From Bacteroidota bacterium (GTDB taxonomy: Bacteria > Bacteroidota > Bacteroidia > Palsa-965), in NCBI GenBank assembly GCA_013288325.1, contig JABDCB010000001.1, positions 62,001-126,000 of the forward strand: DNA of 64,000 nt, in the 5' to 3' direction. The position numbers were made by a program, and so were the translations under genes. This document shows, in pieces, positions 6,374 to 15,023 of the stretch. Under the pieces are notes generated by a model that did no database searches, had not been told where the DNA came from, and worked only from the letters and a program-made list of their open reading frames with translations. Position 1 is the first letter of the stretch. Each line of letters begins with the position of its first letter.

Positions 6374-8285
6374 TAGATTGCTGTTGAATCGAATGATTAT
6401 TTATACTTCGTCAGGTGAGGTTGCTTATGATGAACTATTTCATAAAGGTGTAAATATTATACGTGGCGACAATAGTAGTGGAAAGTCTACATTAACACAC
6501 TTCATATTTTATGTCCTAGGCGGAGGGTTTAATAACTGGGTAAAAGAAGCGAAAAAATGCTCCAGAGTAATGGCCGAAGTTGAGATGAATGGGGCAATAG
6601 TTTCATTAAAAAGGGAAATTAATCTTAACGACAGCGGAAGAGCAAACGCAACCGAAGGATTGTGCTTTTTCTGGGGGCCAATGACTGAGTCACTTGTTAA
6701 TACTACTGATTGGCAAAAATTTAATTTTAACACAACGGCCAATAATAAGAGCTATTCAAATGTAATCTTTGAGAATTTAGACCTGCCAATTGTTGAAGGT
6801 GAGAATAATATTACTTTTCATCAGGTATTGAGACTTTTATATATAGATCAGGAATCTCCAACAAATTCGTTATTTTATTTCGAACAGTTTGATTCGTCTC
6901 TAACTAGGGAAACCGTCTCAGACTTGCTTCTTGGAGCATATAATCAAGAGCTGTACGATAAAAAACAAAGAAAAAATGATGCAGAAAAAGAATTTGAAAC
7001 CATAACGAGTGAAATAAAGGTAATTAAGAAGTTCATCCCCAACCCTCTTGATTTAATCCCAGCTAATATACAGACTAACATTCAAAACAATGAAGCAAAA
7101 GTTAGCGAAATAGAGGAGGAAATTCTTTCACTCAGAGAGAAGAATAAAGCAATACGCTATAGCGCAAAGACAAAGCTTGAATTTGAAGTGCTAAATAGTC
7201 AATCCGTGACCCAAAGGCAAATCGTAAAAGAGCTTGAGAGCAAGATAAGGGGATCTCAACTAGAAATAGAAGACACAGAGTTCTTTATTTCGGCTTTGGG
7301 AAATAAATTAAATGCGCTAAAGAAATCTCTACTTACAAGAGATTTTTTAGGTCATCTGCCCTTAGAGCATTGCCCAGAGTGTTTGTCTAGACTGGAGCCA
7401 GTCGAAGATCCTAAAATATGTAAATTGTGTAAAAGAGAAATAGAGGGCAGTGTTGGAATAACTCAGGCACGTAAAATTGAACAAGAAATCAGTTTTCAAA
7501 TAAAGGAATCAAAAAGGCTAACAGACAAAAAGAGCAGAGAGCTTTTGGAATTAAAGGCTCAATTTGAATCAGAACAGGTAAAATTGCATCAGTTGCAAAC
7601 AAGAGTTAATCAAGCTTTAGCTGATGTTAAGCCCATTAGAGATGAAAAAATTGATGGATTATATGTTGACAAAGGATTTGTTGAAGGGGAAATACTACAG
7701 CTAAGGACATTATTAGAGAACGCGGAGGTGTATCAAAGTCTCGTGAAAAAACAGATGGAATTAGAGCAGGAACTCGAAGGGCTTAAATATACCATTGATA
7801 AGATAACTACTGAGCAGAATAAACTAAAGAAAGAAACAAATAATGCAATAGAAAGGGAAGGAGTCTATTTGCTAAATAATGATCTTAGGAGACAAAGCGA
7901 ATTTATTGATGCAAAAGAGTTTCATATTGATTATAGAAATAATCTTGCTTATGTTTCTGATAAGGAAGCCAGGTATTCAGCCAGTTCCAGTTTTTATTTA
8001 AAAACATCTGCTCGATTTGCAATTTTTCTGGCATCTCTTTCGATCGAGAAGATGAGATATCCACGTTTTGTTTTCTGCGACAATATGGAAGATAAAGGGA
8101 TTGAAAAGGAAAGAGCGCAGAATTTTCAGCGAATACTTATAAATGAAGCAAACAAACATGCTTCAGAATCATATCAGTTAATATATACTACATCGTTTAT
8201 TCCAGATGAATTGGATAATACAGAATATTGTGTTGGAGATTTTTATACTGAAAGTAATCCATCTTTAAAAAATGTGAATAACTAA
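6363..8285 (+). CDS. Rad50/RecN-like ABC ATPase of ABC-3C system
   Basis: A 640-residue SMC-like ATPase. The Walker A is GDNSSGKST (residues 35-43). The middle (~190-500) is coiled coil interrupted by a four-cysteine zinc site, Cys337-x2-Cys340-x12-Cys353-x2-Cys356. The C-terminal head has a degenerate signature region (ASSSFYLKTSARFA) and a Walker B strand YPRFVFCDNMEDKGIE. There the Asp (573) is followed by Asn instead of the usual catalytic Glu, with Glu three residues on. This pattern is what I expect of ABC-3C ATPases, which sense nucleic-acid or nucleoprotein states and license the effector. The gene overlaps the middle component and is followed after ten bases by the last gene. Confidence 0.85.
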   Translation: MMRNRLLLNRMIIYTSSGEVAYDELFHKGVNIIRGDNSSGKSTLTHFIFYVLGGGFNNWVKEAKKCSRVMAEVEMNGAIVSLKREINLNDSGRANATEGLCFFWGPMTESLVNTTDWQKFNFNTTANNKSYSNVIFENLDLPIVEGENNITFHQVLRLLYIDQESPTNSLFYFEQFDSSLTRETVSDLLLGAYNQELYDKKQRKNDAEKEFETITSEIKVIKKFIPNPLDLIPANIQTNIQNNEAKVSEIEEEILSLREKNKAIRYSAKTKLEFEVLNSQSVTQRQIVKELESKIRGSQLEIEDTEFFISALGNKLNALKKSLLTRDFLGHLPLEHCPECLSRLEPVEDPKICKLCKREIEGSVGITQARKIEQEISFQIKESKRLTDKKSRELLELKAQFESEQVKLHQLQTRVNQALADVKPIRDEKIDGLYVDKGFVEGEILQLRTLLENAEVYQSLVKKQMELEQELEGLKYTIDKITTEQNKLKKETNNAIEREGVYLLNNDLRRQSEFIDAKEFHIDYRNNLAYVSDKEARYSASSSFYLKTSARFAIFLASLSIEKMRYPRFVFCDNMEDKGIEKERAQNFQRILINEANKHASESYQLIYTTSFIPDELDNTEYCVGDFYTESNPSLKNVNN

Positions 8286-8295
8286 CATCAGGCTC

Positions 8296-8649
8296 ATGAG
8301 AACCTACGTTCTTGCATATGATAGGTTAAACGAGATTGATAATGATGAGTTATTGAAAGATCTTGTTATTTTCTTAGTGAATGAGGGAGCCGAAGGGGTT
8401 TATCATCTTGTTGCGTCAACATTGATTTTCACATGTGATTATAAATATGTGTATACTCATTGGGTCCGTGCGTTGGAGGAATATAAAATCAGAGACAAAG
8501 TGTTTTATGTTTTATCAGAAGTATATCACAGCGGCTCATCAAAACACATTTCTGCGCAAAAAAGTGAAGAAATTGATCACAAAAATTTTCAAATTTTAGT
8601 AGACGTAGCTAAAGCCTCTAGAACTAGTCTGCCAGCCCCTAAATTATAA
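8296..8649 (+). CDS. Small protein, possibly Cas2/SinR-like ferredoxin fold
   Basis: A 117-residue protein. The first ~85 residues read as strand MRTYVLAYD, helix NDELLKDLVIFLVNEG, strand GVYHLVASTLIFTCD, helix YVYTHWVRALEEYKI, strand DKVFYVLSEVY. This is the order of Cas2, SinR and VapD-like ferredoxin-fold proteins, with Asp9 at the end of the first strand, where the metal-binding acid of Cas2 nucleases lies. The tail (86-117) is unrelated and polar. No CRISPR array or cas1 is near. It ends the ABC-3C operon, ten bases after the ATPase. By inference it could be the nuclease effector of the cassette; the fold call is from pattern only. Confidence 0.5.
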   Translation: MRTYVLAYDRLNEIDNDELLKDLVIFLVNEGAEGVYHLVASTLIFTCDYKYVYTHWVRALEEYKIRDKVFYVLSEVYHSGSSKHISAQKSEEIDHKNFQILVDVAKASRTSLPAPKL

Positions 8650-8671
8650 ATACACTTGATATTTATAATTT
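8641..8671 (+). terminator. AT-only perfect hairpin over the stop codon of the last ABC-3C gene
   Basis: AAATTATAAATA (8641-8652) is exactly complementary to 8660-8671 across a 7-base loop. The left arm contains the TAA stop of the Cas2-like gene. There is no following U-tract, so this may act as a mRNA 3'-end stabiliser or weak terminator. Confidence 0.5.
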
Positions 8672-8940
8672 CATGAGTAAGCATTTGGGTACCATGAAAT
8701 TTAGTATTTGCCACTTTGCCAACATCCTTCATAACCCTTCAATGAGCATTGCTGGTCTCCGATCCCCAAGGCACTACTACATGGTGTGCAATAACTACCT
8801 AGACGTATATAACCTTTTCTTGGAGATGCCTTATTGGGCCTCGTGCAAATATAGTGTGGCAAACATTGTTTTTAGATACTTCAGATGAAGAAAGTCTAAA
8901 AATGTTCTCTCTCCACTTTATAGCTGATAAAGGGCTATAA
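8672..8940. other. Intergenic stretch, no gene recognised
   Basis: About 270 bases between the end of the defence island and the M13 peptidase gene. A 71-codon frame on the plus strand (8673-8888) has no recognisable family, no upstream context and an unlikely residue mix. I see no tRNA, att-like repeat or hairpin here. Confidence 0.5.
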
Positions 8941-11004
8941 TTACCAGATCCGGATCCGGTCTTCCGGCTTTTTATACAGCTTATCGCCGGGTTTAATATC
9001 AAAGGCTTTGTACCAGGCATCCATATTAACGGGAGTGCCTATGGCGCGGTACATACCCGGAGAATGGTTATCGGTAAGGATGAGCTGTGCGGCGGTTTCG
9101 GGCAGGGTATTGGTTCTCCATACCTGTGCCCAGGCCAGAAAGAAACGCTGATCAGGTGTAAAGCCATCAATCTTTTCATTCGACATACCCTGTTTGGTCA
9201 TCTTGAATGCTTCGTAGGCTGCATTGAGACCGCCCAGATCGCCTATGTTTTCGCCCATGGTGAGTTTGCCGTTTACATGGATGGTATCGAGTACGGTATA
9301 GGCATCAAACTGTTCCTGCAGGGTTTTTGTTTTGGCTTTGAAATGCTGCATGTCTTCGTCAGTCCACCAGTTGCGGAGCGATCCGTCTTTGTCGTATTTG
9401 CTTCCGGAATCATCAAAGCCATGGGAAATTTCATGTCCTATTACGGCGCCTATACCTCCATAGTTAACGGCATCATCGGCTGTAGGATCAAAAAACGGCC
9501 ATTGCAGGATACCGGCAGGGAATACGATTTCATTTAATTCGGGACTGTAATATGCATTCACCGTTGGAGGCGTCATACCAAAACGTTTACGATCCACCGG
9601 TTTACCCAGCTGATTCACCATATCCTGATAGTTCCAGGTGGCGGCATTGCGTACATTCTGGAAAAAGGTTTTGCGGTTTATCACAAGACCATTATACGTC
9701 TTCCATTTTTCCGGATATCCTATTTTAGGGTTGAGGGCATGTAATTTGTCAATGGCTTTTTGTTTGGTAGCAGCCGTCATCCAGTCCAATCCCTGAATAC
9801 GGATCTCATAGGCCTTAATCAGATTTTTGATCATCTCATCCATCCGGACTTTAGCCTGCTGATTAAAGTATTTGGCCACATACAGCTGACCCAATAGCTC
9901 GCCTATGCTGCGGTCGGTAAGTCCCGACATACGCTCCCAGCGTGGGGTCTGTGCTTTTTGTCCGGTGAGTACTTTATTGAATTCAAAAGTGGCATCTACA
10001 AAAGGGGAGCTTAGGAAAGGAGCTGCACTTCTGATTACGTTCCATTGCAGGTATACCTGCCAGTCGGCAACGGGTGTAGATGTTAAGAGTGCATTGAGGC
10101 TGACAAAGAAGGCCGGGTTGCTTACGATCACCGAATCCTGTCCGGGTGTTTTCATATCTGCAAACAAGGCTTTCCAATCCAGGAGAGGTGTGGTCTTGCT
10201 CAGATCTGCCACCGAAAATTTATTGTAGGTTTTAACCGGATCGCGCATCTCTACTTTGGGTAGTTCGTTTTCGGCAAACTTCTTTTCCAGTGCAAAAACG
10301 ACTTCTGCATTTTTATCCGCATCGGCGGCTGATACGCCTGTCAACTTAAAGAGTGTGGACACATAACTTTTATATGCTTCCTGTACTTTTACTTTGCGGG
10401 GATCGGATTTCAGATAATAGTCACGGTCGGGCAACGAGATTCCCCCCTGATTCAATTGTGGCAGGAGGTGTTCAGGATTTTTACGATCCTGATCCACAGA
10501 AAAACCGAACATAGGATGGCTGGTGCCGTTTATTCTCATGGCAGCCGTTTCATGCAGAATAGCTTTAAGGTCTTTGAGTTCTTTTATTTTTTTGAGTTCT
10601 GCATCAATGGGCTGGTGTCCTGCTTTTTCGATAGTGATGCTATCCATTCCGGCAGCATAAAAATCGCCAACTCTTTTCTCGATGGAATCGGCGCCGGATG
10701 TTTTGGCTGCAGCGGCTTCCAGAAGTCCTTTGAGGGCTTTTGAATTGGCCTCTCTCAGCTCATTAAAGCTGCCCCAACGGGTTTCTTTGGCAGGTACGGG
10801 GTTATTCTTGAGCCAGGTTCCATTGGCATAATGGTAAAAATCATCTCCCGGTTTTATCTGAAGATCCATATTGGTTTTATCCAAAAATGGCTTTTTGGAA
10901 GGATCATCAGGAAGAACAGTGGCACGTACCGCTATCAGTGCAACGGTTCCGATAATGACGGCATGTAAGGAAGTATTGCCTAATACGCGTTTTAATTTTG
11001 TCAT
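8941..11004 (-). CDS. M13 (neprilysin/PepO-like) metallopeptidase, exported
   Basis: The gluzincin motif GHEISHGFDD (about residues 521-530 from the ATG at 11004) supplies the two zinc histidines and catalytic Glu, and GENIGDLGG some 60 residues later supplies the third ligand. The YYSPELNEIVFPAGILQ segment before HEISH and the C-terminal RAIGTPVNMDAWYKAFDI are typical M13 blocks. The start at 11004 (MTKLKRVLGN) is chosen because it opens a hydrophobic export signal; the longer frame to 11064 would begin at TTG. The 687-residue length is normal for M13. The enzyme would cleave peptides in the periplasm or at the cell surface. Confidence 0.92.
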   Translation of the reverse strand: MTKLKRVLGNTSLHAVIIGTVALIAVRATVLPDDPSKKPFLDKTNMDLQIKPGDDFYHYANGTWLKNNPVPAKETRWGSFNELREANSKALKGLLEAAAAKTSGADSIEKRVGDFYAAGMDSITIEKAGHQPIDAELKKIKELKDLKAILHETAAMRINGTSHPMFGFSVDQDRKNPEHLLPQLNQGGISLPDRDYYLKSDPRKVKVQEAYKSYVSTLFKLTGVSAADADKNAEVVFALEKKFAENELPKVEMRDPVKTYNKFSVADLSKTTPLLDWKALFADMKTPGQDSVIVSNPAFFVSLNALLTSTPVADWQVYLQWNVIRSAAPFLSSPFVDATFEFNKVLTGQKAQTPRWERMSGLTDRSIGELLGQLYVAKYFNQQAKVRMDEMIKNLIKAYEIRIQGLDWMTAATKQKAIDKLHALNPKIGYPEKWKTYNGLVINRKTFFQNVRNAATWNYQDMVNQLGKPVDRKRFGMTPPTVNAYYSPELNEIVFPAGILQWPFFDPTADDAVNYGGIGAVIGHEISHGFDDSGSKYDKDGSLRNWWTDEDMQHFKAKTKTLQEQFDAYTVLDTIHVNGKLTMGENIGDLGGLNAAYEAFKMTKQGMSNEKIDGFTPDQRFFLAWAQVWRTNTLPETAAQLILTDNHSPGMYRAIGTPVNMDAWYKAFDIKPGDKLYKKPEDRIRIW

Positions 11005-13932: not shown

Positions 13933-14232
13933 CTATACTTTGAAGGTGAGCAGCCAGGCAACAGCCTCTTCTTCTTGTTTAAAGGTTTTTACCGGACTTG
14001 CAGCTTTATCGAGCATAGTCATGTGATTCACAATAAGGTGAGTGCCTGCACCTTCAGAAAGGATGGCGGTAGCAATCCGGTTCTTATTTCTGAAATTGGT
14101 ACGCATGAATTTTACCGCTTCATTGGTAAGGGTATGAAATGGACGGGCATCAATCAGTGCCAGTATGGGTTTATCGGTAAGTGTTTCAAATATGAAAGAC
14201 AATTTGTCAGCAAATTTTATTCTGAAATTCAC
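13933..14232 (-). pseudogene. STAS/SpoIIAA-like protein (DUF7793-like), N-terminally truncated
   Basis: The 99 residues match the C-terminal two thirds of Bacteroidota STAS-like proteins: ILALIDARPFHTLTNEA, then a helix, TAILSEGAGTHLIVN, and FKQEEEAVAWL at the end. Family members usually begin some 35 residues earlier with a beta-hairpin. Here the frame opens only at a GTG (14232), closed four codons upstream by TAG, and that upstream DNA is a 21-bp repeat array (see 14224-14863). The GTG itself lies in the repeat word TTCGTGAATTT. The gene therefore looks cut off by the repeat array, though expression of a short form cannot be excluded. Confidence 0.55.
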
Positions 14233-14863
14233 GAACAGGTACTATAGCTACACCGATAAACTCTCCATCTAAAGGAAAAGACTATTTTCCTTTAGATGGA
14301 GAGTCTTTTCCTTCACCGATTGTATCTCCCCGTGAAGAGAATTGTCTTTATTGTCACAAATCCTGACAATTTATTTGAGAATTTGTCCTTTCGGTACACG
14401 AAGAGCATCTCCAGGTAAAAGAAGACGAACAATTCCTTCGACGATTGTGTCTAAAGGTTCAGGAATCCTGTCAATCTGTCCGCAAATCCGATCTAAATTC
14501 ACGAATAGAGCATGTGCCCTCTTACAAAGAGGTACTATGGTTAAAGGAGGAGACTATTTATCTAAAGGAAAATAGTCTATAGCTAAAGGAAGAGATACAA
14601 TTCGTGAAGTTGGAGATGGTATCGGTGAAGGAATTGTTCGTTTTCCTGACAATGGAGGTGGTATCGGTGAAGGTTTAGTAAGGATCGGTGAAGGAGGACA
14701 TACAATTTGTAAAGGAGGAGGTGTTATATGTGGACAAGGAGATGGTATATGTATGCCTTTTGTACCAATCGGTGAAGGAGGACATACAATTTGTATAGGA
14801 GGAGATGGTATAGGCGTAGCTTTTGTGTGTATCAGTGAACGTATACGTGGTCATTCTGAACAG
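14224..14863. repeat. Degenerate 21-bp minisatellite, about 29-30 units
   Basis: Written in 21-base lines in phase with 14591, the sequence shows a repeating unit with consensus GGAGATGGTATCGGTGAAGGA. Examples are 14549 (GGAGACTATTTATCTAAAGGA less its last base pairs), 14612, 14654, 14675, 14696, 14738 and 14780. Units at 14696 and 14780 differ at only a few bases. Some units at the left end are inverted, including the one read on the minus strand at about 14309-14329. Because 21 is a multiple of three, a frame runs through it, but it is broken by TGA at 14333 and TAG at 14573. I regard it as non-coding. Confidence 0.75.
14261..14303. repeat. Perfect 19-bp palindrome inside the repeat array
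   Basis: CTCTCCATCTAAAGGAAAA (14261-14279) is exactly complementary to 14285-14303 across a 5-base loop (GACTA). It marks the point where unit orientation in the 21-bp array switches. It could fold as a cruciform, and it shares the TCTAAAGGA word with the array. Confidence 0.85.
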
Positions 14864-14890
14864 AAGGGCGGCAAAAGTCCGGTGAACTTT

Positions 14891-15023
14891 TGAGCGAGCT
14901 AGTGTGAAAGCCAGCTAACATCCTCCCCCTTGCCCCCTCCGAAGGGGGATATGCTTTCACACATGCTCGCTCAATCCCGCACTGCGGGATTGCCGTCCCT
15001 CCGGAGGGGGCAAGGGGGAGGAT
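14891..15023. repeat. Interleaved inverted-repeat element (A-B-A'-B')
   Basis: Arm A (14891-14911) pairs with A' (14953-14973) at 19 of 21 positions. Arm B (14920-14940, ATCCTCCCCCTTGCCCCCTCC) pairs perfectly with B' (15003-15023). The order A, B, A', B' makes the two helices cross as in a pseudoknot. A third hairpin (AATCCCGCA, 14973-14981 with 14983-14991) sits between. No ORF or transposase is present. C-rich palindromes of this kind are scattered in Bacteroidota genomes; a MITE-like or REP-like element is the likely class. Confidence 0.75.

Follow-up and report, generated by a model that had tools for sequence, protein, structure and literature searches.

The window, the whole stretch of 64,000 nucleotides of bacterial DNA that was analysed, carries a 21-bp repeat array that is probably a copy of a dispersed, non-coding element of the foldback type (a mobile minisatellite), whose family belongs to a genus-wide class of intergenic arrays. 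Across this class the period and not the sequence is conserved, as if unit length rather than the letters were kept. The element itself is most likely selfish or neutral, and effects on the host, if any (through a hairpin, a cruciform, or a 3'-UTR structure), would be secondary.

An earlier note had described a degenerate 21-bp minisatellite at 14224-14863, and its period is borne out. In the comparison that was fixed beforehand as decisive for this claim, the lag-21 autocorrelation over these positions (0.460) lies above every one of 1000 dinucleotide-preserving shuffles (mean 0.263, sd 0.017, maximum 0.338). Peaks occur at lags 21, 42, 63, 84, 105, and 126, and the two halves are each significant separately (lag-21 autocorrelation 0.415 and 0.508). 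The tandem repeat search proposed in the same note gave a divided answer: Tandem Repeats Finder (TRF) with default settings reported nothing at the array because its units are merely about 50-60% alike, and with lenient settings it returned period 21 at 14536-14819 (13.5 copies, 52% matches). The array has tandem units in the range of 10-100 bp, like a minisatellite, and it is not a CRISPR array, as the units are degenerate along the full length and no constant repeat is present. The bounds had to be amended: the element begins at 14198 and ends at about 14849, and what starts at 14850 is a different dispersed repeat. The features of the region are the following (positions of the window):

13933 to 14232, minus strand: truncated DUF7793 gene, in which the element supplies codons 1 to 11 (VNFRIKFADKL).
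14198 to 14849, plus strand: whole element (copy C1) of phase-locked 21-bp units, non-coding, delimited by the 13-copy alignment, the left ends, and the single strand switch.
14198 to 14227, plus strand: near-invariant left end GACAATTTGTCAGCAAATTTTATTCTGAAA, opening with the palindrome GACAATTTGTC; all 14 genome matches to its pattern are element copies.
14243 to 14512, minus strand: left half, made of reversed 21-bp units by unit matrix scan, with the switch after about 315 nt (boundary approximate).
14513 to 14849, plus strand: right half, made of forward-oriented 21-bp units, near GGAGATNNNATNNGTNNANNN; the plus-strand matches all share one phase modulo 21, and the TRF array at 14536-14819 lies within it.
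14850 to 14872, plus strand: first bases (GTCATTCTGAACAGAAGGGCGGC) of an independent dispersed repeat, which abuts the right end and is treated as separate from the element; 29 genome matches.

The element measures about 650 bp in the window and 630-790 bp elsewhere. A left end of 30 bp (GACAATTTGTCNNCAAATNTTATTC) is common to all 14 copies and nearly invariant, and in the correctly oriented alignment the left boundary is sharp: GACAATTTGTC(AG/GC)CAAAT(T/A)TTATTC(T/C)GAAA. The body is far less conserved than this end, which suggests that the end is recognised by something or otherwise constrained. When all copies were scanned with a unit matrix derived from C15 (its right half), the left half of each of the 13 readable copies proved to consist of reversed units and the right half of forward ones, with a single orientation switch near 315-390 nt in every copy scanned and, in most copies, with matches in one phase modulo 21 per side. 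The inverted units mentioned in the earlier note are thus present, but they take up essentially the whole left half rather than a few positions at the left end. With its two halves opposed and phase-locked to 21, the element folds back on itself, and it has the long inverted arms of tandem subrepeats by which foldback elements are defined. A single mismatch separates C7 from C10 in their first ~360 nt, whereas beyond ~420 nt their identity drops to 40-65% per 60-nt block, from which it appears that copies recombine near the axis. Terminal inverted repeats are absent: in no copy does the right end contain an inverted match to the left end (GACAATTTGTC...). Therefore, membership among the MITEs is not claimed, although the element shares with them its non-coding nature, its dispersal, and its lineage-specific insertions.

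The assembly to which the window belongs (G000) is a Bacteroidota MAG of 2.81 Mb in 104 contigs and 59.6% complete. The genome-wide search for the unit that had been suggested was rewarding, with at least 14 copies of the element in this assembly. Querying with the array retrieved six long copies at 76-80% identity, plus further diverged ones. The left-end pattern has exactly 14 matches, all of them element copies and 12 without a mismatch, compared with none for its reversed control, and a sequence model (R1) of the first 65 nt recovers the identical 14 copies. They occupy intergenic positions among varied genes and in no constant orientation; flanking genes, which encode CHU_C type IX secretion domains and SprB repeats, mark the genome as one of the Bacteroidota. 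No autonomous partner with the element's left end was found in this 60%-complete genome. Target specificity of the IS200/REP type was rejected because the left flanks of the copies share no common tetranucleotide, and the left end bears neither of the GTAG and CGTC tags that mark REP/BIME sequences.

Two loci speak for arrival by insertion. In the window, the copy replaces the 5' end of the DUF7793 gene: the Pfam match (PF25056) spans profile positions 36-113 of 113, positions 1-35 are missing, and DUF7793 homologues within the genus are ORFs of 125-203 aa. At the purL locus of G000, the array and an adjacent G-rich palindrome together fill ~830 bp between two genes, both of which are kept, with no array between them, in the congeners G001-G003; the flanks on either side of the insertion align between G000 and G001. 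At the purL junction (TTTTT on the left, ACTTA on the right) no target-site duplication was seen, and the right end is ragged; the right end also varies among copies in general. The glyS locus is uninformative as an empty-site test, because the neighbouring gene differs between genomes. With one clean empty site (purL) and one truncated gene as its basis, the element would have arrived by insertion.

Relatives of the element's sequence were sought at several levels. BLAST of the element in 58 related genomes, including the three congeners, gave no match, nor did the left-end model outside G000 across the order. Over 395 genomes of the class, this model gave five borderline matches (E 2e-4 to 1e-3), which is about chance level, and only one of the five (L133) is periodic, at lag 63 and in an open frame. 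The unit pattern matched 16 genome and 11 viral stretches; none of these gave a 21-bp autocorrelation that would suggest a non-coding array of this kind, and L083 and L098, the strongest two, look coding. Phage and plasmid DNA contained no match to the element, and the left-end pattern is absent from IMG/VR and GTDB contigs, on which grounds a phage or plasmid origin was rejected. The remark in the earlier note that no known feature class accounts for the array is a fair one, given the lack of any Rfam, phage, plasmid, or reference-genome match. A limited literature search found no description of such period-conserved arrays.

The surroundings of the copies are themselves rich in repeats. The dispersed repeat from 14850 (GTCATTCTGAACAGAAGGG...) has 29 occurrences in the assembly, and seven of these adjoin a copy of the element; in the form GTCATTCTGAACAGAAG(G/C)GNNGG, these 7 of the 29 (window 14850-14872 and 28 others in G000) begin exactly at the element's end. 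A palindromic repeat of ~100 bp at 14920-15023 of the window (ATCCTCCCCCTTGCCCCCTCC ... GGAGGGGGCAAGGGGGAGGAT) adjoins several element copies (C2, C8, C10, C22, C25, and C85) and has a weak, below-threshold likeness to whalefall-1 RNA. At C25, positions 8105 to 9067 of that contig form a nest of three repeat kinds, in which a copy of the element is followed on its right by the palindromic repeat and then by the GTCATTCTGAAC repeat in the opposite orientation.

Tandem arrays with periods of 21, 42, 63, 84, or 126 bp are found in the congeners G001, G002, and G003 and elsewhere in G000. The scan of the congeners sought any periodic DNA and not the element's sequence, with one TRF setting throughout, and the census is a sample of 1.07 Mb of the genus and about 1.02 Mb outside it, in stretches that are mostly contig starts. 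Of the 33 arrays sampled in the genus, 27 have a period divisible by 21, compared with 2 of 16 outside (Fisher p = 5e-6); the 27 are not fully independent, as several per genome share a family (~17 sequence families). The remaining six arrays of the genus have periods that are multiples of three. Among the 27, at least one (L141) looks coding and by eye resembles a histidine-kinase-like coiled coil, and another (L147) is probably coding. Both outside arrays come from a single genome of another family (G014). Intergenic arrays of G014 (L204 332-583 and L205 3982-4264) have periods of 42 and 63 and are built from units with CGCACATGTGCG and TTAATTGCG, respectively, in view of which the class may be patchy beyond the genus. 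Short repeats of period 14, with two to three copies, are common in most of the Bacteroidia genomes that were sampled; other families also have longer 14-bp arrays (L194 and L200, for example).

The units of different arrays are unrelated, as illustrated by TTGTTCTAGAGAACAACACCC (L148), AAGCTTAGGGAACATGTCGGG (L165), and TGATCAATGCAAGGTCTCTTC (L222). Over 253 pairs from 23 arrays, the mean pairwise z of the 21-mers is 0.17, and clear similarity is limited to three arrays, all in G002; common ancestry of the units between arrays thus finds no support in pairwise comparison. Purine/pyrimidine asymmetry at period 21 is raised in the arrays. In G002, the 21-bp array at L165 309-722 (unit GGGAAGCTTAGGGAACATGTC) is directly followed by an IS110-family transposase (PF01548), and the same unit forms a further array at L167.

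A coding origin has the obvious attraction that 21 bp equal seven codons, and the earlier note had considered a decayed Gly-rich repeat gene whose seven-codon phase was broken by only two stops. The cited frame in fact contains three (14270, 14333, and 14573) before the one at 14891, and stops occur in every frame in most copies. Substitutions among copies, compared in the well-aligned left part, are equal across the three codon positions, and because they do not track codon position the seven-codon phase is without meaning; within families, too, no codon-phase signal exists. Several copies do contain ORFs of 160-260 codons, but open frames are expected by chance of any 21-mer array, and in other 21-bp arrays the stop-free frames are no more open than in column-permuted arrays. 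Translated frames of the element had no Pfam match. The unit also resembles the heptad DNA (EELQSVNEE) of a CheR/PAS protein (L098), a likeness that had been pre-selected by the search pattern itself, and an origin from this heptad was therefore rejected. Frames, Pfam, codon-phase, and stop-purging tests all led to the rejection of a coding origin, and descent from a decayed seven-residue-repeat gene or from pieces of a coiled-coil gene is highly improbable.

An ordinary minisatellite (VNTR), expanded locally at each site and dispersed only by occasional gene conversion, is a better candidate and still an unlikely one. Families B and D of the same genome, which occupy three and about five loci, share the array but not the flanks and have no conserved ends, agree with it, as does the variable number of units between element copies. 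What it does not explain is the left end of 30 bp of unique sequence common to all 14 copies, the identical half-and-half orientation in all copies, and the purL site that is empty in three congeners. The suggestion of a selfish expanding array accordingly holds as far as a multiplying array is concerned, but not as local expansion alone, since the element is dispersed and lineage-specific, its end is conserved, and its halves are inverted. That the foldback would be a functional structured RNA or DNA hairpin under selection seems improbable from the sequences at hand. RNAfold energies are 3 to 12 sd below shuffles on both strands of 13 copies (z -3 to -12), and the local palindromes change in sequence among copies yet remain palindromic. 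However, equal strength on both strands is what an inverted repeat in DNA gives anyway, C7 and C10 combine one left arm with different right arms, no Rfam family was matched at gathering score, and the gene context is varied. Slightly less probable again is that the arrays would serve to bind a DNA-coating or centromere-like protein whose sites must lie two helical turns apart. Such a role would fit a 21-bp period equal to two turns of B-DNA, its persistence while the sequence changes, and the dyads in some units, which are significant (p ≤ 0.05) in about a third of the arrays of the genus. Against it, the arrays have no common motif, most lack dyads (so that dyads were rejected as a common rule), and no 10.5-bp harmonic was detected in A+T or AA/TT, for which reason helical bending was rejected as well.

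According to the preferred reading of a mobile foldback element, copies would spread by transposition or a copy-paste process in which the left end is recognised and the enzyme supplied in trans. Within copies, units may be gained and lost through in-register slippage or unequal exchange, template switching between the arms would produce inverted and locally palindromic words, and copies may recombine near the axis. Together, these processes would let the sequence turn over fast while the step of two helical turns persists. For the fixed step across the genus, shared descent of satellites with full turnover of the letters is favoured as the less demanding explanation. A sequence-indifferent process with a fixed 21-bp step (a polymerase, a recombinase, or a DNA-coating protein acting every two helical turns) that makes or reshapes the arrays is a tentative idea with perhaps one chance in a few. 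If it is true, the element of the window would be one product of it that turned mobile, and the unit length would be the signature of an enzyme not yet described.

Bacterial VNTRs and minisatellites are normally single loci with unrelated periods. The element resembles them in its tandem non-coding units and in a copy number that varies between copies, and differs in being dispersed with a unique end; in addition, almost all sampled arrays of the genus are equal in period. Satellite DNA under concerted evolution likewise shows sequence turnover with a persisting unit length and families at many loci, whereas here the arrays are bacterial, short, and intergenic, and two orientations occur inside one element. 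The units of bacterial MITEs and other intergenic repeats are shorter and have terminal inverted repeats or modules, and to our knowledge none of these repeats is a 21-bp phase-locked array in two orientations. They are like the element in being short, non-coding, intergenic, multicopy, palindromic, and lineage-specific. The sets compared were, for example, RU/ERIC-like repeats (PMC2759123, which gives RU units of 103-168 bp), the pneumococcal BOX/RUP repeats (PMC3049150), and a Cardinium MITE (PMC9769881). REP/BIME palindromes (PMC3733652) are 20-40 bp long and GTAG- or CGTC-tagged; they are also dispersed extragenic palindromic DNA, but the element is 630-790 bp long and its left end has no such tag.

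Eukaryotic foldback (FB-type) elements consist of long inverted halves of short tandem subrepeats, have little or no coding content, and are dispersed. The window element is like them in its inverted subrepeat halves, its non-coding nature, and its dispersal, and unlike them it is bacterial, its ends show no terminal match, no target duplication was seen, and one fixed 21-bp register is kept through both halves. Its mobility and the growth of its array can be tested, because 14 copies share a fixed end and one empty site is known. Arms of inverted subrepeats are already known from foldback elements of eukaryotes, and bacteria have short dispersed palindromes; the part that will surprise the specialist is a conserved period with unrelated sequences. 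The period of bacterial tandem repeats is normally whatever chance gave, and one period of two helix turns shared by unrelated sequences would point either to mutation by a mechanism whose step size is built in or to a protein for which the spacing counts and not the letters.
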